Source of the DNA: an uncultured Mucispirillum sp.
GTDB taxonomy: Bacteria > Chrysiogenota > Deferribacteres > Deferribacterales > Mucispirillaceae
Assembly: GCA_944326705.1 (NCBI GenBank)
Contig: CALVEY010000001.1
Location: forward strand, 1-64,000
DNA length: 64,000 nucleotides
Direction: 5' to 3'
Shown here: positions 12,973-25,078 of the stretch, one piece after another
Numbering within the stretch: the first letter of the stretch is position 1
Layout of the letters: each line of letters opens with the position of its first letter
Position numbers and translations under genes: made by a program
Notes under the pieces: generated by a model
Databases searched by the model: none
Told to the model about the DNA's origin: nothing
Seen by the model: the letters and a program-made list of their open reading frames with translations, nothing else

Positions 12973-13001
12973 TTGTAAAAATAATAAAAAAATATTATGA
13001 T
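12973..13001 (+). promoter_or_regulatory. promoter of the first TorD-type chaperone gene
   Basis: TTGTAA (12973-12978), a 17-base spacer and TATGAT (12996-13001), 30 bases upstream of the start codon at 13031. Confidence 0.5.
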
Positions 13002-13030
13002 TGCTTAACTTATTCTACAAGAGGGATTAT

Positions 13031-13744
13031 ATGTCATTTAATCAAGAATTACAAGAAGATTTAATCAATTCTTCAATTTTACGCAGCGCTTTTTTCAATT
13101 ATTTCTTTAGAGTATTTAATAATATAGCAGATGAAAACTTTATAGGTGTTTCCGAAAAATATTTAACTTATTTTAATGATTTAAAAGATTATGTAGAAAG
13201 TAATGAATACAATAATGCCTGCCAAATGTTTGAAGAATATATTAATAACGAGAAAAATGCAGTAAATATACAAGACTTTCTCCAAAGGCTTAATATTGAA
13301 TTTACATCGTTATTTTTAAGCGGTATGGGAAATATTCCTGCATCAGCTTCCTCTTACCTTTCTAGTGATGGCTTATTAAAAGGCGAAGAATGGGAAAAAG
13401 TTGTAAAAGTATATAAAATGAGAGATTTCCAAATGCCTGACTCTATTAAAGCACCAGAAGATTATATTAGTGTAGAAATGCTTTATATGCAAAAACTTAG
13501 TGATTTAATTGGCAGACTGGCAGAAGATGGAGATATGAATCTGCTTAAAGCTACAATAGATGACCAGATAAATTTTTCATCAAACCATATACTTGTGTGG
13601 ATTGATATGTTTGCAGATGCTGTATACAGTAAATCTATTACACTTAATTCAAAATTATATGCTTCTGTTGCTGTTATTATGAAACATTATATTAAATATG
13701 ATATAGAGCTTTTAAAAGAGTTTGCAGAAGAATTAAATAAATAA
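13031..13744 (+). CDS. TorD/DmsD-type molybdoenzyme chaperone
   Basis: A 237-residue all-helical protein. IPASASSYLSSDGLLKGEEW and PEDYISVEMLYMQKLSD match the conserved P-x-S-x-Y and EDHI...E...M regions of TorD/DmsD/NarJ chaperones, which bind the Tat signal of molybdoenzymes and hold them for cofactor insertion. The start at 13031 is chosen over 13001 because GAGGGAT precedes it. It lies about 2 kb from the Tat-dependent molybdoenzyme gene at 15741, its likely client, and resembles the protein at 24353. Confidence 0.8.
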   Translation: MSFNQELQEDLINSSILRSAFFNYFFRVFNNIADENFIGVSEKYLTYFNDLKDYVESNEYNNACQMFEEYINNEKNAVNIQDFLQRLNIEFTSLFLSGMGNIPASASSYLSSDGLLKGEEWEKVVKVYKMRDFQMPDSIKAPEDYISVEMLYMQKLSDLIGRLAEDGDMNLLKATIDDQINFSSNHILVWIDMFADAVYSKSITLNSKLYASVAVIMKHYIKYDIELLKEFAEELNK

Positions 13745-13846: not shown

Positions 13847-15382
13847 CTATTTACCTTGATATGCTTTATCTTCTTTATTGATTTCTTTAGCATCTCCAGC
13901 ATATAAGCTGTCTATATTCGGATTAGTTAATGGATAGAAATATACTTCTTCATCTTCATAGTATGACTCTACACCTAATGTAGCAAAATCAGTATATTTT
14001 GTAACATCCCATTTTTCTATAAATATTTTAAGGTTTTCATATTCTAATTCTGGCTCAGTTTTATTATCTGACATAACAAATTTATCACCATTCCAGAAAA
14101 TATAATCAGTATTTTGTTTGTCATAAGTGTTAGGGTCATCTTCACCTATAAGCACTCTTGCATAAGCAGCATCTGCTGCATCAACAGGATAATATACAGA
14201 ATATGAGCTCCACTCCTGCCATGAGCCGTCATAGATAGCAGCATTTTGATAACCTAAAATTTCTCTGAATATAAACCAGTGCGGTGCAGTAGTTCTTCCT
14301 GTATAGCAGTGGAAAAGTATTCTTTTATTTGGGTTTTTATCAATATTTTCTAAAAATGAAGCATTTTTAGTAGTTTTACCGTTATTTTCAGTAAAACCTT
14401 TTACCATTGCCCTAATCTGCTCTGGTGTTTTGAATGTACCTTTACCGCCTGTAATAGTAAATTTGCCATCATTAGAAAGCTGAGCATCAAGATATAAAGC
14501 CCAGTGATTAGCATAGCCGCCATTTTTTACAGGTTCATAAGCAAGCTGAGTAGCACCTTTTATTCTTCCGTCAATAGCATTATTATCATATATAGTATAT
14601 GTAACAACCTGACCATTTGATTTAACTGGTTTTTTAGCATCAATAGTAGAAATTACTGCCACTTCACCAGAAGCATCAGAATTCATTTTACCTGCTTTTG
14701 CATATTCAATAATTTCACCAAATGGCGCACGAACTGAATCAATATAGTTGCCTGGTAAATCTTTTACTGAGAAAGTAGACGGAGTAATTTTTGAAATATC
14801 AGCAGGAGCTGCTTTATATGAAGCAGCATCAATATTATTTGCTTTTGCATATTCGCCAAAGAAATAATAGTTAGCGCCATTTAATACTTTTAAAGCTTTA
14901 TTAGAAAAGCCCCAGTATTTTAATGCCCAGAAAGCCCTGTATATCATTTGGTTAGTTAAGTCATGGCTTGTAAGAACGATTAATGTATTGCCATCTATGC
15001 CGTATTTTGATAAAAATTTATCAACTTTAGCACCGCTTGCAACCATAGCACCATTTGGAGCAACACCATCACTTCTTTTTTCCATTAAATATTCTTCCTG
15101 ACTAAAAGAATATGCACCTTTAATAGTTGACTCTGGCACTGTTCCATTTTGAAGAGTTACATGTAAAATAACTACTTTTTTTCCATCATCTGTTTTATAG
15201 CCATTATCAATATATTTTTTTAACTCTGCAGGTTCAATTAAAGCAGAGCCAGCAGTGCTGTCTATTGAATAATAACTGTCAACAGTCTGCTTTTTGCATG
15301 CTGCTAATGCTGTTACTATTAACATACTTAATAACACCAGTTTTAGCAGCATAAATGATTTGGTATAAAATTTTGCTACCAT
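13847..15382 (-). CDS. rhodanese-domain lipoprotein (sulfurtransferase)
   Basis: A 511-residue protein with a lipoprotein signal (ALAAC near residue 28) that should place it outside the cytoplasm. It has at least two rhodanese domains. The C-terminal one carries the active-site loop HCYTGRTTAPHW with its cysteine and the signature AAIYDGSWQEW. In the first (about residues 60-180) the equivalent loop reads LTSHDLTNQ, without cysteine, so it is probably inactive. GGAGGG precedes the start. It is divergent from the molybdoenzyme operon, which suggests it supplies sulfane sulfur, thiosulfate or polysulfide to that enzyme. Confidence 0.82.
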   Translation of the reverse strand: MVAKFYTKSFMLLKLVLLSMLIVTALAACKKQTVDSYYSIDSTAGSALIEPAELKKYIDNGYKTDDGKKVVILHVTLQNGTVPESTIKGAYSFSQEEYLMEKRSDGVAPNGAMVASGAKVDKFLSKYGIDGNTLIVLTSHDLTNQMIYRAFWALKYWGFSNKALKVLNGANYYFFGEYAKANNIDAASYKAAPADISKITPSTFSVKDLPGNYIDSVRAPFGEIIEYAKAGKMNSDASGEVAVISTIDAKKPVKSNGQVVTYTIYDNNAIDGRIKGATQLAYEPVKNGGYANHWALYLDAQLSNDGKFTITGGKGTFKTPEQIRAMVKGFTENNGKTTKNASFLENIDKNPNKRILFHCYTGRTTAPHWFIFREILGYQNAAIYDGSWQEWSSYSVYYPVDAADAAYARVLIGEDDPNTYDKQNTDYIFWNGDKFVMSDNKTEPELEYENLKIFIEKWDVTKYTDFATLGVESYYEDEEVYFYPLTNPNIDSLYAGDAKEINKEDKAYQGK

Positions 15383-15740
15383 AATCCCTCCAATATTAAT
15401 AAAATACTTTGCATAGCATATACATCAAAATAATCACCCTCAAAAGATACTCTACCACCTTTTATAAAAAATGCAAGAGTTATTTTATTGTTTTTTATCT
15501 TAATTTTATAACATTATTATATTTGAATAATTTCTGTATTTTTACTAGGAATTTCATCAATTATATTTAATATTAATACTACCTTTTTACTATGATAATA
15601 CTACATATAAACACTCATACAGACAAAATATTTTTTAAATAATTATAAAAATAAAACAGCATATATTTTTTTACTTGCAAAAAATAATTTTATGGTATAA
15701 AGATAGTTTAATAGCATATTGCAAAAATGAGGAGGGAAAG
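15383..15740. promoter_or_regulatory. divergent regulatory region of the rhodanese and molybdoenzyme genes
   Basis: 358 AT-rich bases without a gene. A possible rightward promoter is TTGCAA (from 15675) followed after 15 bases by an extended -10, TGG-TATAAA (15696-15701), about 40 bases before the start at 15741. The leftward promoter is not clear to me. I see no obvious palindromic operator. Confidence 0.35.
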
Positions 15741-18257
15741 ATGAAGCTAACTCGAAGAAATTTTATTAAAACTTCAGTAGCTGGTCTTGCAGGGGCTGCT
15801 GTTGCAACAGGAGTTCCTTTAAAAGCTGAAGCAAGGGAAATCACATCAGCAGATTATGGTGTAGAAAACAAAGTGTTTCTTACCTGCCGTATGTGTGCAC
15901 AAAACTGCCCTATGGTTGCCTATATAAGAGATGGCAGATTAGTAAGGCTTGATGCAAACCCAAATACACCATATCCATCTATATGTGGCAGAGGTAGAGC
16001 AGCAGCTGCTGCATTATACGACCCACAAAGGATTAAAACACCACTTATTAGAACAGGAAAAAGAGGCAGTGGCGAATTTCGCAGTGCATCTTGGAATGAA
16101 GCATTAGACTTAATTGGTAATAAAATGCTCCAGTTAAGAGATGAAGGCGAACCACACGCTGTAGCATATTTTCCAAGGTTTAATACTGCATCTCTTTTAG
16201 ACGATACAATATTTAATCTTTATGGAACAGACAATGTATTCAGCTATGGTGATACATGTTTTGGTTCTACTAACCAGTTAGGTCTTGGTTCAGTATTTGG
16301 CGGCGGTGAAGAACCTCGTCAAGGTAACTCTTCTGTTATGGGCGATTATGAAAATGCTAAAATCGCTGTATTAATAGGCAGAAACCCAGTTGGCGGCCTT
16401 GTTGCATTCCCTTGGGGCGGTATGTTCGGAAGAGGAAGAAAAAATGGTATGAAAACAGTTCTTGTTGACCCTAAAAAATCATTAGGTGTTGGTGAAACTG
16501 ATACAGACTGGCTCCCAGTTATTCCTGGTGGAGATATTCCATTCTTAATTGGTCTTGCTGGTGAATTATTTAAAAATAATTACTATGATGAAGCCTTTTT
16601 AAGAGAATATACAAATGCTGATATTCTTATAAACACAGAAACACTTCTTCCTGTATATCTTGACAGCGAATTAGAAGAACCAGACTATATGGTATATGAT
16701 GAAGTGGCTAAGGCTCCTGTTATGAAATCAGAAGCAGAACGCCCTGCTATTTTTGGCAGCTGTGAAGTTGACGGCGTTCAAGCTAAAACTGCATTACAGC
16801 TTTTAAAAGAATCCTGCGAAAAATTTACTCTTGAACAGGCTTCTGAAAAAAGTGGTATTCCAGCAGAACAAATCATTAAACTTGCTAAAGATTTAAATGA
16901 TGTAAAACCTGCATGCTTCCTTGAAAGAGGCTATCGTTCTACAAGATATTTTAACTCTTTACATGAAAAATATCTTATATCATCTATTAATGGTCTTTTA
17001 GGTGTATATGGAAGAAAAGGTGGTTTAATATATGGCAGAAATGCATATTTAGACACTCCATTCTCATATAATGATTCAAATGAAATATCAGTAAATATGT
17101 GGTTTAAAGATAATGTAGAAGGCTTTGAGCTTTGCGACCCATATAACATGCGTAGAACATTCCCACTTGCTGTGGAAAGAGAAGAACCTTACAAACTCCG
17201 TATGGCATTCTTAAACGGACAAAACCCAGTTGGCGGTAGTGTTGGCGGTTATAAAATAGCTCAAGCATTAGAAAAAATGGAAATGGTAGCTGCTATTTCT
17301 CCATTCTGGAATGAATCACTTTTATTTGCTGATGTAATTTTACCAGATACTACATTTTTAGAAAGAGCAGAGCCTCTTTTTGCTACATATAAAGCAACAT
17401 TCCCTGTTATTACAGTTCATGACCAGGTTGTTGAACCTATGTTTGATACAAGAAATGGTTACTGGATTATGCTTGCTCTTGCAAAAAGAATATTTAGTGA
17501 AGATGAATATTATGATAACTTTAATGATTTTGAGCAAGGCGGTATCAAATACATAGTAGACTATCAAATTGAAAATTTATATCTTAATGATGAAGATGCT
17601 GCAACATTCTCTCGCAGAAAATTAATTGAAGATGGTGTATGGTGCGGTGCTCCTGCTCCTGTTAAACCAATGAATAAACCTACTCCATCAGGTAAACTTG
17701 AAGTTTATTCATTATTTATGGCTAACTGGTATAACAGACTTATGGAAGAAGACAGAGCACAGGAAGCTCAATATTACAGCCCATTATATGATTATCCACC
17801 TACTTACTATCAAACTAAAAAAGAAAAACTGGATAATGATGAATTTATACCGATAACAGGTTTCTCACCATTAAGCTCCTTTACTGGTGCACAGACTCGT
17901 AACAACATATTACTTAAAAATGTTGGACAAAACCTTAACTACTCTGCAGTATTTATTAATACAAAAAGAGGTCAGGACTTAGGCTTAAAAAGCGGTGATA
18001 TTATTGAAATCTTCAATATTGAAGAACCAAGCATGGTTATTAAATCAGAAGTTCAGTTAACAGAAACTGTTGAGCCACATGCATTATTTTCATTCTATGG
18101 TGTAGGCACAGGCTTATATACAAAACTTTCTGAAAAATTAAGTGTTGCATGCCCAATAGGCTTTAACCCTAACCACATTGGTAATTTAACATTTATGCCT
18201 GTTGAAGCATCTGCACCATCACAAGATTTTATTGTTAAAATAAGGAGGGCAAAATGA
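15741..18257 (+). CDS. Tat-exported molybdopterin oxidoreductase, catalytic subunit (PhsA/PsrA-like)
   Basis: An 838-residue DMSO-reductase-family enzyme. A Tat signal (TRRNFIK, then a hydrophobic stretch) sends it to the periplasm. The FeS cluster motif is C49-x2-C52-x3-C56-x25-C82. The likely molybdenum ligand is C173 in YGDTCFGSTNQ; a cysteine here fits thiosulfate, polysulfide and arsenate reductases rather than serine-ligated DMSO/TMAO reductases. The start at 15741 follows GGAGG and begins at the Tat signal. The next two genes encode its FeS and cytochrome b subunits, and a rhodanese gene is divergent, so reduction of thiosulfate or polysulfide is my best guess; the substrate is not proven. 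Confidence 0.85.
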   Translation: MKLTRRNFIKTSVAGLAGAAVATGVPLKAEAREITSADYGVENKVFLTCRMCAQNCPMVAYIRDGRLVRLDANPNTPYPSICGRGRAAAAALYDPQRIKTPLIRTGKRGSGEFRSASWNEALDLIGNKMLQLRDEGEPHAVAYFPRFNTASLLDDTIFNLYGTDNVFSYGDTCFGSTNQLGLGSVFGGGEEPRQGNSSVMGDYENAKIAVLIGRNPVGGLVAFPWGGMFGRGRKNGMKTVLVDPKKSLGVGETDTDWLPVIPGGDIPFLIGLAGELFKNNYYDEAFLREYTNADILINTETLLPVYLDSELEEPDYMVYDEVAKAPVMKSEAERPAIFGSCEVDGVQAKTALQLLKESCEKFTLEQASEKSGIPAEQIIKLAKDLNDVKPACFLERGYRSTRYFNSLHEKYLISSINGLLGVYGRKGGLIYGRNAYLDTPFSYNDSNEISVNMWFKDNVEGFELCDPYNMRRTFPLAVEREEPYKLRMAFLNGQNPVGGSVGGYKIAQALEKMEMVAAISPFWNESLLFADVILPDTTFLERAEPLFATYKATFPVITVHDQVVEPMFDTRNGYWIMLALAKRIFSEDEYYDNFNDFEQGGIKYIVDYQIENLYLNDEDAATFSRRKLIEDGVWCGAPAPVKPMNKPTPSGKLEVYSLFMANWYNRLMEEDRAQEAQYYSPLYDYPPTYYQTKKEKLDNDEFIPITGFSPLSSFTGAQTRNNILLKNVGQNLNYSAVFINTKRGQDLGLKSGDIIEIFNIEEPSMVIKSEVQLTETVEPHALFSFYGVGTGLYTKLSEKLSVACPIGFNPNHIGNLTFMPVEASAPSQDFIVKIRRAK

Positions 18258-19066
18258 GTTATCAAAAAATGGCAGTATGCTATGACACTCAATCATGTAT
18301 AAAATGCTTTGCCTGTATTGTAAGCTGTTCCACAGAAAATAGAATGAGATTACAAAGGGATTATAACTACTCTGTTGAAAAATCAATGGTTGAACAGCAT
18401 CCTCATTTAAACTATTTAAGAGTAGAATGTAATGAAAAAGGAACATTTCCTAATGTTACACAAATTGCTGCATTTAAACACTGCCAGCATTGTGAAAACC
18501 CTAAATGTATGGATATATGCCCTACTCTTGCAATCAGTAAAAAAGATACAGGTGCTGTTGTTATTGATGCAGATAAATGTGTAGGCTGTCAATCTTGTAA
18601 AGACGCATGCCCATACGATATACCTGTTTTCTCACAAGCTACTGGCAAAACATATAAATGCACAATGTGCCATGATAGATTAACTGCTGGTCTTCCTACA
18701 GCATGCTCTGCTGCATGTCCTTCTGTTGCAATATTCTCTGGCCCTGCTGAAGAAGTTATTGCAGAAGCAAGAAAAAGAGCTGAGCATTACAGCAAAGTAT
18801 TTAATAAAGAATATTTTGTTTATGGTGCAGATAAAGTTAATAATACTGTTGGAACATTATCTTATATGACTATTGCTCCTTTAGAAAACAGAGATGATTA
18901 TTTACTTCCTGCTGACCCATCTAATGGTGTGGCTGCAAGTAGAGAAGTTGCAAAAGTTATTGGTGCAGCTGCTATGATTGGTACTGCTGCCGCTGTTGCA
19001 GGACATGCAGTATTTACAGCTGCTAAATATGACGATAAACACCACAAGGAGAATGAAAATGAGTAA
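18254..19066 (+). CDS. four-cluster ferredoxin subunit with C-terminal membrane anchor
   Basis: A 270-residue electron-transfer subunit. Four groups of cysteines (CIKCFACIVSC, CQHCENPKCMDIC, CVGCQSCKDAC, CTMCHDRL...CSAAC) can bind four [4Fe-4S] clusters. A hydrophobic helix near residues 230-250 may anchor it to the membrane as in formate dehydrogenase-N beta (FdnH), unlike shorter PhsB/PsrB proteins. The ATG overlaps the stop of the catalytic gene by four bases, so the two are coupled. It would pass electrons between the cytochrome b subunit and the molybdenum subunit. Confidence 0.87.
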   Translation: MSYQKMAVCYDTQSCIKCFACIVSCSTENRMRLQRDYNYSVEKSMVEQHPHLNYLRVECNEKGTFPNVTQIAAFKHCQHCENPKCMDICPTLAISKKDTGAVVIDADKCVGCQSCKDACPYDIPVFSQATGKTYKCTMCHDRLTAGLPTACSAACPSVAIFSGPAEEVIAEARKRAEHYSKVFNKEYFVYGADKVNNTVGTLSYMTIAPLENRDDYLLPADPSNGVAASREVAKVIGAAAMIGTAAAVAGHAVFTAAKYDDKHHKENENE

Positions 19067-19748
19067 CTCAAATGAAAAAATTACATTATTCTCAAATATG
19101 CAGATGTGGTATCATAAACATATCATTCATTTTATGATGATATTTATTCTGACAGGGCTTCCATTAATTTCCCATACTTTTTCATGGGTAGCTTATATTA
19201 TTGGTGTGCCTGTATCAGTATTTTATTCAAATGGTGACCCATTATATGTAGGAATTCAAGTTTGCAGAGTAATACATAGAATTACTGCTGTATTATGGAT
19301 AGTAACAAGCATACCATTTGTTTTAACTATGCTTTTTACCAAATGGGAGCTTGCTTTAAGAAAAAGAAAAGATGAATCCTGGGGAACTTATGTAAAAGAA
19401 GAATTACAGGATATGAAAACTATGTATATAGATTTCAACTATCCAAAAAGAGCTGGAAAATATAACTTAGGTCAAATCTCTGCAGGACTTGCAGTTATTG
19501 TATTTGGCATAATTATGATTGTAACTGGCTTAATCTTATGGTTTAGAGTTGATTTTTCTTCTACAACTGTAAGTATTATGAGATTATTCCACAGCATTGG
19601 ATTTTTAGTGTTTGTGTTATTCCTTATTATACATATTTACCTTGCAGTTCACCCTGTAAATAAAGCAGGATATAATGCAATGTTTAGAGATGGTAAAGAT
19701 GATTTATCACATGCTAAGAAAAAACATCCAGGAATGTTTGTAAAATAA
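19059..19748 (+). CDS. cytochrome b membrane subunit (FdnI/PhsC-like)
   Basis: A 229-residue protein with four hydrophobic helices. Histidines placed for two hemes b are seen in MWYHKHIIHFM near the N terminus, CRVIHRITAV, and the last helices FHSIGFLVF and IIHIYLAVHP. This matches the di-heme gamma subunit of formate dehydrogenase-N and PhsC of thiosulfate reductase, which exchange electrons with menaquinol. AAGGAG precedes the start at 19059, which overlaps the ferredoxin gene by eight bases. Confidence 0.82.
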   Translation: MSNSNEKITLFSNMQMWYHKHIIHFMMIFILTGLPLISHTFSWVAYIIGVPVSVFYSNGDPLYVGIQVCRVIHRITAVLWIVTSIPFVLTMLFTKWELALRKRKDESWGTYVKEELQDMKTMYIDFNYPKRAGKYNLGQISAGLAVIVFGIIMIVTGLILWFRVDFSSTTVSIMRLFHSIGFLVFVLFLIIHIYLAVHPVNKAGYNAMFRDGKDDLSHAKKKHPGMFVK

Positions 19749-20137
19749 TGCAGGTATTTCTATCAAAAATTAAAAGGCGTAATCTATTAAAACTTTTATG
19801 GCTTGCGCCTTTTATACCACTTTATAAATACTTGACACCAAAAGTAAAAAAAGATAATTTTATATCTGTCCCCCTTGCATCTCTGCCTTTCAAGGGGGCT
19901 TATCTTATTAATGATAAACATACAGGTATTATAAAAAATAATGAAGGTATAAAAGTTTTCAGTATATCATGCACTCACTTAGGATGTGTATTAAATGTAG
20001 AAAACGATAAATTTATATGTCCATGTCATGGCAGTATATTTGATTTAGAAGGCAACGTTTTAAAAGGTCCTGCACTAAAACCTTTAAAACAGCTTGAATA
20101 TAAAATTGAAAATGAAAATATTATAGTGTATATATAA
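19748..20137 (+). CDS. Rieske [2Fe-2S] protein
   Basis: A 129-residue protein with an N-terminal RR-containing membrane or Tat segment (KRRNLLKLLWLAP). The Rieske cluster ligands are in CTHLGC and CPCHGS, including the two extra cysteines that form the disulfide in bc-type Rieske proteins. It is short for a bc1 Rieske protein. It starts at the stop of the cytochrome b subunit and is followed by split cytochrome b genes, so it belongs to a quinol-oxidising bc-type complex. Confidence 0.88.
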   Translation: MQVFLSKIKRRNLLKLLWLAPFIPLYKYLTPKVKKDNFISVPLASLPFKGAYLINDKHTGIIKNNEGIKVFSISCTHLGCVLNVENDKFICPCHGSIFDLEGNVLKGPALKPLKQLEYKIENENIIVYI

Positions 20138-20139
20138 TT

Positions 20140-20757
20140 ATGTTTAAAGAATTTATAAAACACTTGTTTCCCCGTGTTACACTTAAAAAAAATCTGCGTT
20201 TTACTTATACTTTATGTTTAGGCGGTCTTTCTTTTACTGCATTTATTATGCTTGTAATATCTGGTGTGCTGCTTGCCATTTACTATATTCCAGAACCAAA
20301 CCAGGCTTATGATTCCATTATTTTTATAGAAGAAAATGTTACAGGAGGCAAATATATTAGAAATCTGCACAGGTTTTCAAGCAATGCTTTTTTAATACTT
20401 ATGTTTCTGCATATTCTCCGTGTTATATTAACTGGAGCATTTTTAAGTAGAAAATATAACTGGGTTATTGGGCTTTTTCTACTGTTTTTAAGTATTTTTA
20501 CAGGCTATACAGGTTATCTTCTGCCAATGGACCAGCTTTCATACTGGGCAACTCAGACAGGTGCAGAATTAATTAAAATACTGCCTTTTGGAGATTATAT
20601 TTATAATATTATAATACCAGATACAATTGGCGGAAGGCTTAGTTTAATTAGATTTTATGCTCTGCATATTATTATACTTCCTTTTTTAATTTCCACCCTT
20701 TCCTTTATACATTTTTTTATAGTAAGGCGTGATAAAGGGGTGCTGCCATATCTATGA
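20140..20757 (+). CDS. cytochrome b6-like N-terminal half of a bc complex
   Basis: A 205-residue protein with four membrane helices. Two histidine pairs 14 residues apart, in LHRFSSNAFLILMFLHILR and LHIIILPFLISTLSFIHFF, are the axial ligands of hemes bL and bH. It has the length of cytochrome b6, meaning cytochrome b is split here. No clear ribosome binding site is seen, so it is probably translated by coupling with the Rieske gene three bases upstream. Confidence 0.87.
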   Translation: MFKEFIKHLFPRVTLKKNLRFTYTLCLGGLSFTAFIMLVISGVLLAIYYIPEPNQAYDSIIFIEENVTGGKYIRNLHRFSSNAFLILMFLHILRVILTGAFLSRKYNWVIGLFLLFLSIFTGYTGYLLPMDQLSYWATQTGAELIKILPFGDYIYNIIIPDTIGGRLSLIRFYALHIIILPFLISTLSFIHFFIVRRDKGVLPYL

Positions 20758-21179
20758 TAAACGAAAAAAATAAAAAAGACTTATATATAAAATCAAATCC
20801 GTATTTTTTTAAAATTATAGGTATATCTTCTGTTATACTTATAATTTTCATACTTGTTGGCTCAATATTTTTTGATGCTCCACTAGAAGAAAAAGCTGAG
20901 CCTTATAACGCTCCAAACCCTTCTAAATCTGCATGGTTTTTATTATGGACTCAGGAGCTTGCTTCCTATGGCAGCTATTATGTATATATTATAATATTTT
21001 TCTTTATTTTTTATATGATACTGCCATTTATGATTAAAAAAACACCAAAACATGCAGTATGGTTTCATTCTGCTTATAAATGGATAAATATAATATCAGT
21101 TATCGTTTTTCTTGCTATTATTACTTTAACAATAATTGCATATTTTTTTAGGAAAGAATATTGGCTGCTAGGATTTTAA
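20754..21179 (+). CDS. cytochrome b C-terminal half (subunit IV-like)
   Basis: A 141-residue protein with three hydrophobic helices. NPSKSAWFLLWTQELASY corresponds to the quinol-oxidation region of split cytochrome b, where the classical PEWY is replaced, here by SAWF. It overlaps the preceding gene by four bases (ATGA). With the Rieske protein, the N-terminal half and the following cytochrome c it makes up a complete bc-type complex. Confidence 0.8.
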   Translation: MINEKNKKDLYIKSNPYFFKIIGISSVILIIFILVGSIFFDAPLEEKAEPYNAPNPSKSAWFLLWTQELASYGSYYVYIIIFFFIFYMILPFMIKKTPKHAVWFHSAYKWINIISVIVFLAIITLTIIAYFFRKEYWLLGF

Positions 21180-21922
21180 TAATATTACTTTTAAGCTGTA
21201 GTTTTTTATATGCTGCTGATAATAAATGTATATCATGCCATGAAAATGTGTGCGTAAATAAACCAAATAACTGCATATCCTGCCACAGGGGCGACAGCTC
21301 TACTTCAAGAAAAGATATTGCTCATTATAAACTGATTAAAGGAAAATATGCATCATATACTGATAAATCAAACCCAAAAACACAAAAAGGTATAAAAATA
21401 ATAGAAAAAGCAGCCTGCACAAGATGCCATAATATTGGTAAAAGCGGTGCTACCCTTGCTTCTGATTTAAATTCTGCAGTTAAAAGGCTTACAACTGATG
21501 AAATAATAAAATCTATAAAAGAACCTGTTATTAATATGCCCCTTTTTCAATTTAATGATGAAGATATGGAAGCGTTAATTACAGGTATTTATTATTATAC
21601 AATACCAGAAGACAGTAAATCTATAACACAGATAGTTCACTTTCAAGATAAAGCAGCAGGTAATGATATATTTCAAAAAAAATGCGGCACATGCCACAAA
21701 GCATTAACAAGTGCCGGCGCATTTGGTACATCAGAAGATGCACCAAACCTAAGCGGCTTATCAAAAATATATCCAGATTATCTAAATGGAAAACACTGGG
21801 ATAAAGATTTACTTGATAAATGGCTTACTAACCCTAGAAGTTTGAAAAAAAATGCTGTTATGCCAATAATAGAATTAACTGATGAAGAAAAAAAAGCTGT
21901 TATTAATACATTAATAGAGTAA
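21161..21922 (+). CDS. tetraheme cytochrome c of the bc-type complex
   Basis: A 253-residue exported protein with a signal peptide (AARILIILLLSCSFLYAA) and four heme c motifs: CISCH twice near the N terminus, CTRCH in the middle and CGTCH in a C-terminal class I-like domain with MPIIELTDEEKKAVI. It starts at a TTG with AGGAAAG upstream and overlaps the cytochrome b gene by 19 bases. It probably takes the place of cytochrome c1 and accepts electrons from the Rieske protein. It is the last gene of the operon. Confidence 0.83.
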   Translation: MAARILIILLLSCSFLYAADNKCISCHENVCVNKPNNCISCHRGDSSTSRKDIAHYKLIKGKYASYTDKSNPKTQKGIKIIEKAACTRCHNIGKSGATLASDLNSAVKRLTTDEIIKSIKEPVINMPLFQFNDEDMEALITGIYYYTIPEDSKSITQIVHFQDKAAGNDIFQKKCGTCHKALTSAGAFGTSEDAPNLSGLSKIYPDYLNGKHWDKDLLDKWLTNPRSLKKNAVMPIIELTDEEKKAVINTLIE

Positions 21923-24352: not shown

Positions 24353-25078
24353 ATGGATTATATCGGTAAAACTTTAAAAGATAATATGCATTCAGCAGGT
24401 ATTATAAAAACAAATTTTTATAACTACTTCTATAAAGTATTTTATTCATATCCAGAAACCAGCTTTATTGGCATTACAAGCCGTCTTATACCTTATTTTG
24501 ATGAACTTAAAAAACATATAATGAATAATGATTACAGCACTTCTATAAATGTATTAAAAAATTACAGCACCTATGAACAAAGTTTAAAAGAAGACCAGAT
24601 AGAAGATTTGCTTGAGCTTTTACAGGATATATACCACGAATTATTTTTAGATTCAGTTTATTCTATTCCATGTACTGCTTCTGGATATATTGCAAGCAGC
24701 GATATGCAGATTAGAGAAAGAGAAAAAGTTAAAAATATATACGAAATTAATAACTTCTTACCACCAGAAGAAAATACATACCCAGTAGACCATATAAGCA
24801 TAGAAATGCTTTATATGCAGCAAATAAATGCTCTTTTTACTAAATTTTTAGAAGAAGAAAATAAAGATAAGCTTTTAAATATTCTTCAAGAGCAGTATAA
24901 CTTTTTACAGGCACATATTCTTACATGGATAAATGAATTTACAATATATTTAAAAGAGCAAATCACTCAGCCTGAAAGCAACCTGTATTATGCAGTTGCA
25001 GGTATAATGAATGAGTTTGTAAAATACGATAAAAAACTTACTGAAGAATTTTTAAAAGCTCTTAAATCACTGGAATAA
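24353..25078 (+). CDS. TorD/DmsD-type molybdoenzyme chaperone, second copy
   Basis: A 241-residue helical protein resembling the chaperone at 13031 along its length: TNFYNYFYKVF against AFFNYFFRVF, CTASGYIASSDMQIRERE against SASSYLSSDGLL, and DHISIEMLYMQQINALF against DYISVEMLYMQKLSDL. A likely extended -10 (TGC-TATAAT) lies about 35 bases upstream, and AGAGGTGA precedes the start. No molybdoenzyme gene is next to it, so the client is unknown. It converges on the aldolase gene with a 17-base overlap. Confidence 0.75.
   Translation: MDYIGKTLKDNMHSAGIIKTNFYNYFYKVFYSYPETSFIGITSRLIPYFDELKKHIMNNDYSTSINVLKNYSTYEQSLKEDQIEDLLELLQDIYHELFLDSVYSIPCTASGYIASSDMQIREREKVKNIYEINNFLPPEENTYPVDHISIEMLYMQQINALFTKFLEEENKDKLLNILQEQYNFLQAHILTWINEFTIYLKEQITQPESNLYYAVAGIMNEFVKYDKKLTEEFLKALKSLE

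Follow-up and report, generated by a model that had tools for sequence, protein, structure and literature searches.

The ext cluster of Geobacter sulfurreducens (extHIJKLMNOPQS, GSU2940-2930), whose ExtO is a Rieske protein, has been assigned a role with selenite and tellurite (PMC5877670), and had already been flagged in 2010 as a conserved, uncharacterised cluster with a bc complex (PMC2825233). A respiratory selenite reductase, SrrABCDEF, is known from Bacillus selenitireducens, and the srr operon encodes rhodanese proteins (PMC12481199). We describe here a locus of an uncultured Mucispirillum sp., a gut bacterium of the Deferribacterota, at 15741-21922 of the first 64,000 nucleotides of contig CALVEY010000001.1 (assembly GCA_944326705.1; this whole stretch is the window), in which the genes of a molybdoenzyme with its iron-sulfur and cytochrome b subunits (A, B and C) lead directly into those of a bc-type module. 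The block is best described as a variant ext locus, in which an ExtO-P-Q-S set (OPQS) is joined to a complete quinone-linked A-B-C enzyme and is flanked by an ExtH-like rhodanese gene.

Gene order and redox centres of the block

The genes of the locus, in window coordinates, are as follows.

15741..18257, + strand: A, MopB catalytic subunit of 838 aa (Pfam and NCBIfam; PhsA is the best curated family)
18254..19066, + strand: B, 4Fe-4S subunit with a C-terminal transmembrane helix, FdnH-like (NCBIfam FDH-beta best)
19059..19748, + strand: C, cytochrome b of the FdnI/cytochrome b561 type, quinone-reactive (TIGR01583, 7e-21)
19748..20137, + strand: ExtO-like Rieske protein (Pfam PF00355; CTHLGC and CPCHGS motifs)
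20140..20757, + strand: ExtP-like b6-type cytochrome b (NCBIfam ExtP, 219 bits)
20754..21179, + strand: ExtQ-like subunit IV analogue (NCBIfam ExtQ, 135 bits)
~21161..21922, + strand: ExtS-like tetraheme cytochrome c, probable lipoprotein, start codon uncertain (NCBIfam ExtS, 232 bits)
13847..15382, - strand, divergent from the operon: ExtH-like rhodanese lipoprotein (NCBIfam ExtH, 168 bits)

All seven + strand open reading frames (ORFs) that the first-pass annotation had read from the letters are found where it placed them; its gene set was incomplete in that the divergent ExtH-like gene was omitted. At every junction the two genes either overlap or lie at most 2 nt apart: A and B overlap by 4 nt, B and C by 8 nt (with C from the ATG at 19059), C and the Rieske gene by 1 nt (TAATG, with the Rieske ATG at 19748) and ExtP and ExtQ by 4 nt, ExtQ and ExtS also overlap, and 2 nt separate the Rieske gene from ExtP. 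The junction between C and the Rieske gene is kept, as an overlap or a gap of at most ~25 nt, in the other Mucispirillum genomes and in sister genus g3, which rules out an assembly error or a peculiarity of a single genome as the origin of the join. Because of these overlaps and their conservation, A-B-C and OPQS very likely form one transcriptional unit, as had been claimed. A separating terminator at 19748, the earlier counter-possibility, has no space there; with regard to a separating promoter, a scan of the block returned 49 promoter-like matches against 53 in shuffles (and 6 terminator-like matches against 5), no excess in either case, and so decides neither way on an internal promoter.

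On their sequences, the last four genes are best identified as counterparts of ExtO-P-Q-S from the selenite/tellurite ext cluster of Geobacter, the cluster on which the ExtP, ExtQ and ExtS families were defined, and not as an ordinary bc1 complex. Genes for the Rieske protein, ExtP, ExtQ and ExtS are contiguous and in ext order, and ExtS scores well above its NCBIfam cut-off of 100 bits. The Rieske protein, the only one encoded in the genome, has both ligand motifs intact, with Phe instead of Tyr following CPCHGS. In ExtP the histidines 77, 91, 176 and 191 are invariant, have b6-type spacing and correspond to the four heme-b ligands; the PDB match is cytochrome b6, and a Cys occupies the heme-ci position, a role that we assume for this position from what is known of b6f. 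ExtQ has NPSKSAWF in place of PEWY, a replacement conserved in nearly all ExtQ examined, and ExtS has four CXXCH motifs. Across the block, the set of redox-centre ligands is complete. To call this a complete bc complex, as the first-pass annotation did, is correct for the Rieske protein, the b6-type cytochrome b, subunit IV and a c-type cytochrome, but not for PEWY or for cytochrome c1 or f, neither of which is found in the block, where the tetraheme cytochrome is present instead. Elsewhere, ExtP and ExtQ are read as a single ORF of ~340 aa at L030, L033, L157 and other loci of family f6; the aligned ExtP sequences of families f6 and f7 have no Cys at the heme-ci position.

In the molybdoenzyme, the catalytic subunit A is Phs/Psr-like and the B and C subunits are formate-dehydrogenase-N-like. 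The best curated NCBIfam family of A is PhsA, although its 272 bits do not reach the cut-off of 694, and its closest PDB match is the Psr/thiosulfate reductase of T. thermophilus. A has a twin-arginine translocation (Tat) signal (NCBIfam Tat model match), four N-terminal 4Fe-4S cysteines that are invariant among homologues, and Cys173, invariant across 15 homologues; Cys173 is the likely Mo ligand of A, although it aligns one residue away from the position of the PsrA Cys. The active site carries a TCFGS-type motif, also seen in the homologues, and lacks the Sec/Cys-His pair of formate dehydrogenases, which excludes A as such an enzyme. A Mo-less subunit of the alternative complex III/Qrc type is likewise excluded, as Cys173 is retained and a Rieske protein is present. 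The best PDB match of B is 1kqf_B, across nearly its full length, and C has in common with FdnI (1kqf_C) a YNxGQ motif and paired histidines, so the earlier label of a PhsABC-like enzyme is apt for A and not for B and C. No heme or docking domain was found in A or B, and an AlphaFold2 model of A, with a predicted local distance difference test score (pLDDT) of 57, was too weak for use. A-B-C enzymes of the Mucispirillum type also occur without OPQS: sister genus g2 has them, two Mucispirillum genomes (genus g1) carry them as second copies, and they are found in three other families. These standalone units show A-B-C to be self-contained.

Two further observations concern MopB genes. The g2 homologue at L055 (G013 contig 11) is interrupted by one TGA and two TAA codons, in a genome that is also without OPQS. 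In the genome of the window itself, several paralogous operons (L152, L153, L154 and L156) encode a large MopB protein, a 4Fe-4S protein, a TorD-like chaperone and a protein of ~513 aa, together with a pentaheme cytochrome that has a near-identical start.

Recurrence of the pairing and the remaining ext genes

The pairing of a molybdoenzyme with OPQS recurs in several phyla. Wherever a Mucispirillum assembly covers the region, the seven-gene block is present together with ExtH, and so it is in g3. Co-occurrence in related genomes, named beforehand as a test of the single-operon claim, is strongly positive. Among Deferribacterota OPQS loci with enough flank, MopB lies in the same cluster in 23 of 24; in the one exception (G042), psrA/psrB-like genes lie close by on the opposite strand. 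Elsewhere in the order, OPQS stands next to a Psr-type A (~735 aa) with PsrB and NrfD, often accompanied by ExtH, ExtI, ExtM and ExtN. A search with ExtP yielded 80 named genome loci, 52 of them with at least 9 kb upstream; a same-strand MopB lies upstream in 23 of these 52 and MopB is placed elsewhere in only one. Six of the 23 MopB-bearing loci are of the Mucispirillum/g3 type and the remainder belong mostly to Geobacterales and Acidobacteriota. Geomonas sp. Red32 (L123), for instance, has PsrABC-ExtMN-OPQS. The view that such operons do not ordinarily include a bc complex is not supported by these counts.

The molybdoenzyme of the pairing has not been the same throughout. In the MopB trees, one clade unites the ext-linked Psr enzymes from Deferribacterota, Geobacterales and Acidobacteriota, and the non-ext Psr enzymes sampled in the same phylum lie apart from it. 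Mucispirillum A falls outside the Psr enzymes, ext-linked and non-ext alike, in a tree without named PhsA or SrrA references, and one clade holds the ext-linked A copies from both g1 and g3 (99*). A single clade of all ext-linked MopBs is rejected by the approximately unbiased (AU) test (p-AU 3e-64), the group tested having been named after the first tree was seen. In the ExtP tree, by contrast, Mucispirillum and g3 group with families f3 and f8, which are Psr-linked (98/85). As A lies outside the ext-linked Psr clade while its ExtP groups with Psr-linked ExtP, the partner has changed and the pairing has stayed. The simplest history is that an ext locus already present had its molybdoenzyme replaced once, before g1 and g3 diverged. 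While ExtOPQS and Psr/Phs-type molybdoenzymes are each already known, we found neither an ext-molybdoenzyme link, with its recurrent pairing, nor a replaced partner described in the open-access literature, most subscription papers lying outside the search.

Other arrangements were seen at individual loci. In two Geobacteraceae loci (L118:6316 and L142:5938) a divergent MopB lies directly before OPQS, without ExtM or ExtN, and may be a further independent pairing. At L041 and L042 (G005 and G001) one or two pairs of genes for proteins of 474 aa and 203 aa lie between extS and an oppD-like gene, and the 203-aa protein behind extS has a twin-arginine-like start.

The remaining ext genes of the genome are not adjacent to the block: those of the multiheme cytochromes ExtM and ExtN are on contig 73 and that of the porin ExtI is on contig 67. 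In relatives ExtM/ExtN, a second ExtH and ExtI are clustered, and in g3 ExtM/ExtN still adjoin the OPQS locus (L187). All eight genomes of the family that carry OPQS have ExtM as well, whereas the four g2 genomes have neither ExtM nor OPQS. The ExtH-like gene of the block adjoins A in all Mucispirillum loci and in g3, and the region between the two carries a conserved element; together with two chaperone-like genes it adds the following features to the window.

15577..15595, + strand: conserved 19-bp element TACTACCTTTTTACTATGA, putative operator, in the divergent extH/A intergenic region; invariant in six species
13001..13744, + strand: TorD/NarJ-family chaperone-like gene (Pfam PF02613, 4.6e-18), syntenic in most Mucispirillum loci
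24353..25078, + strand: second TorD/NarJ-family chaperone-like gene (Pfam PF02613, 5.9e-15), syntenic in relatives

The form of the element common to the extH/A region and to the second region, extH-extI-extM-extN, is TWCTACCYTTTWACTATGA, again a putative operator. Sites lie at window 15577-15595, L188:3638-3656, L180:12475, L181:10626, L186:3462 and L182:6586. A variant precedes the second extH by ~125-170 bp in four genomes; in a fifth genome it lies ~730 bp ahead of extM. We regard the evidence that both loci share the element as moderate. The upstream chaperone-like gene, listed with a TTG start and having an in-frame ATG downstream, is a possible maturation factor for A, and we infer membership of the system for the second. 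Further along the window, at ~34178-57000 on the - strand, visual inspection of the ORF list suggests a run of head and tail genes like those of Mu-type phages.

Proposed function of the locus

We propose a model in which A-B-C and OPQS are two menaquinol-oxidising branches of one anaerobic respiration directed at chalcogen or sulfur compounds, and give it about an even chance of being correct. OPQ would oxidise menaquinol and pass electrons via the Rieske centre to ExtS, and from there to the multiheme ExtM/ExtN encoded elsewhere. A-B-C would draw menaquinol electrons through its own cytochrome b and reduce in the periplasm a chalcogen or sulfur compound, for which selenite, tellurite, polysulfide, tetrathionate and thiosulfate are candidates, and ExtH would handle the product. 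The quinone site of the FdnI-like C is predicted to face the cytoplasm, so that A-B-C would reduce its substrate at the expense of proton-motive force, as Salmonella Phs does, and the OPQ branch would earn it. That both parts probably belong to one respiratory system is argued by the recurrence of the pairing across phyla and its retention through replacement of the molybdoenzyme; the earlier suggestion of joint action on the menaquinone pool is probably right. The reductive direction is favoured because A is nearest to Phs, the enzymes at other ext loci are of the Psr type, the ext cluster is tied to selenite and tellurite (PMC5877670) and the srr operon carries rhodaneses (PMC12481199). We regard as doubtful a broader, modular version of this model, in which one conserved ExtOPQS would be paired, from lineage to lineage, with interchangeable molybdoenzymes, the Rieske/ExtS branch supplying or draining their electrons, and respiration of chalcogen oxyanions would conserve energy at the bc site.

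Several points weigh against the proposal of two menaquinol-oxidising branches at a variant ext locus. Apart from ExtS, the best NCBIfam families are still below their cut-offs (ExtP 219 against 290 bits, ExtQ 135 against 150, ExtH 168 against 200). Genome-wide, sites with up to three mismatches number four for the window's 19-bp element, itself included, against ~7 for a reversed control pattern; as chance sites are about as frequent, support for the element comes mainly from its position and conservation. The occurrence of A-B-C alone elsewhere means that OPQS is not required by A-B-C, a cbb3-type oxidase and further candidate cytochrome c acceptors are encoded in the genome, and B and C resemble formate dehydrogenase-N, an enzyme of the oxidising direction.

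With an FdnI-like anchor, the oxidising direction is an appreciable if minor possibility: A-B-C would take electrons from a periplasmic donor, such as a reduced sulfur or selenium compound, and reduce menaquinone electrogenically as formate dehydrogenase-N does, and OPQS would oxidise the menaquinol towards ExtS and on to ExtM/N, cbb3 or other cytochrome c acceptors. The FdnH/FdnI-like B and C with their YNxGQ quinone motif suit such a scheme, quinol produced by a dehydrogenase drains naturally into a bc complex, and the genome contains a COX1 oxidase. It sits less well with the kinship of A to Phs/Psr, whose characterised members are reductases, with the Psr/NrfD type of the equivalent enzymes at other ext loci, and with the link of the ext system to selenite and tellurite reduction (PMC5877670). 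Furthermore, co-occurrence of Rieske and COX1 genes across the phylum, which would be a sign of an oxidase partner, showed no tracking of OPQS with COX1, and this weakens any general oxidase-linked role.

The same lack of tracking counts against a looser association, which we think quite unlikely, in which OPQS is a general menaquinol-cytochrome c reductase serving cbb3, a cytochrome c peroxidase or extracellular electron transfer, and stands behind A-B-C just for shared expression. OPQS is indeed the sole Rieske/bc complex of the genome, A-B-C is found elsewhere without it, and many Geobacterales ext clusters carry OPQS with no MopB nearby; yet the pairing recurs across phyla and has survived replacement of the molybdoenzyme. 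Direct coupling, in which the Rieske/ExtS branch gives electrons to A, or takes them, within a supercomplex, with quinol cycling or electron bifurcation linking a high-potential branch to the molybdoenzyme, seems very improbable. Translational coupling of the operon would fit it, and in C. jejuni the periplasmic molybdoenzymes Nap and Tor are fed by the bc complex QcrABC (PMC6195509), but A-B-C has its own quinone-reactive cytochrome b and hence no need of an extra feed, neither A nor B shows a domain for heme or docking, and standalone A-B-C units exist.

For the Geobacter ext bc complex, whose function has been an open question from 2010 onwards (PMC2825233), the recurrent Psr pairing and the exchange of the partner in Mucispirillum, with the bc module retained, point to a shared function. 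The pairing brings into one neighbourhood features of two selenite systems that have been studied separately, the cytochromes of Ext and the molybdoenzyme with rhodanese of Srr. It also suggests that a gut commensal associated with inflammation has a respiratory capacity overlooked so far; searched for this point, the published genome paper of Mucispirillum schaedleri did not refer to a cytochrome bc complex (PMC5285517).

Comparison with known systems

B and C match formate dehydrogenase-N (FdnGHI) in architecture and sequence, whereas A lacks the Sec/Cys-His pair and is closer to Phs/Psr. With PhsABC/PsrABC, A has in common the Tat signal, the N-terminal 4Fe-4S cluster and a conserved Cys at or adjacent to the Mo-ligand position, but it scores far below the PhsA cut-off, B is FdnH-like and the operon runs on into a bc-type module. 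Compared by operon composition only, SrrABCDEF is likewise a complex iron-sulfur molybdoenzyme of the Psr/Phs/Srr lineage with rhodanese and chaperone; unlike the Mucispirillum block, it has no bc module described and its anchor is a 43-kDa protein (PMC12481199). The module itself resembles b6f/bc1 in its Rieske ligands, four heme-b histidines with b6 spacing, Cys at the heme-ci position and split cytochrome b/subunit IV, and differs in having NPxK(S/A)AWF for PEWY, a tetraheme cytochrome for cytochrome f/c1 and Phe for Tyr after CPCHGS.

The closest comparisons are within the ext systems. As in Geobacter, the order is O-P-Q-S, the rhodanese is ExtH-like and ExtM, ExtN and ExtI are encoded in the genome; unlike in Geobacter, A-B-C stands before OPQS, ExtM/N/I are at another locus, and ExtP, ExtQ and ExtH fall below their family cut-offs. 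The ext-linked PsrABC-NrfD clusters of other Deferribacterota, Geobacterales and Acidobacteriota share with the Mucispirillum block a MopB protein, a 4Fe-4S subunit and a membrane anchor upstream of OPQS, often with ExtH/ExtI. In those clusters A is of the Psr clade and ~735 aa, B is ~190 aa and the anchor is NrfD or another protein with eight transmembrane helices, whereas in Mucispirillum FdnH/FdnI-like B and C accompany an A of 838 aa that belongs to a different clade.

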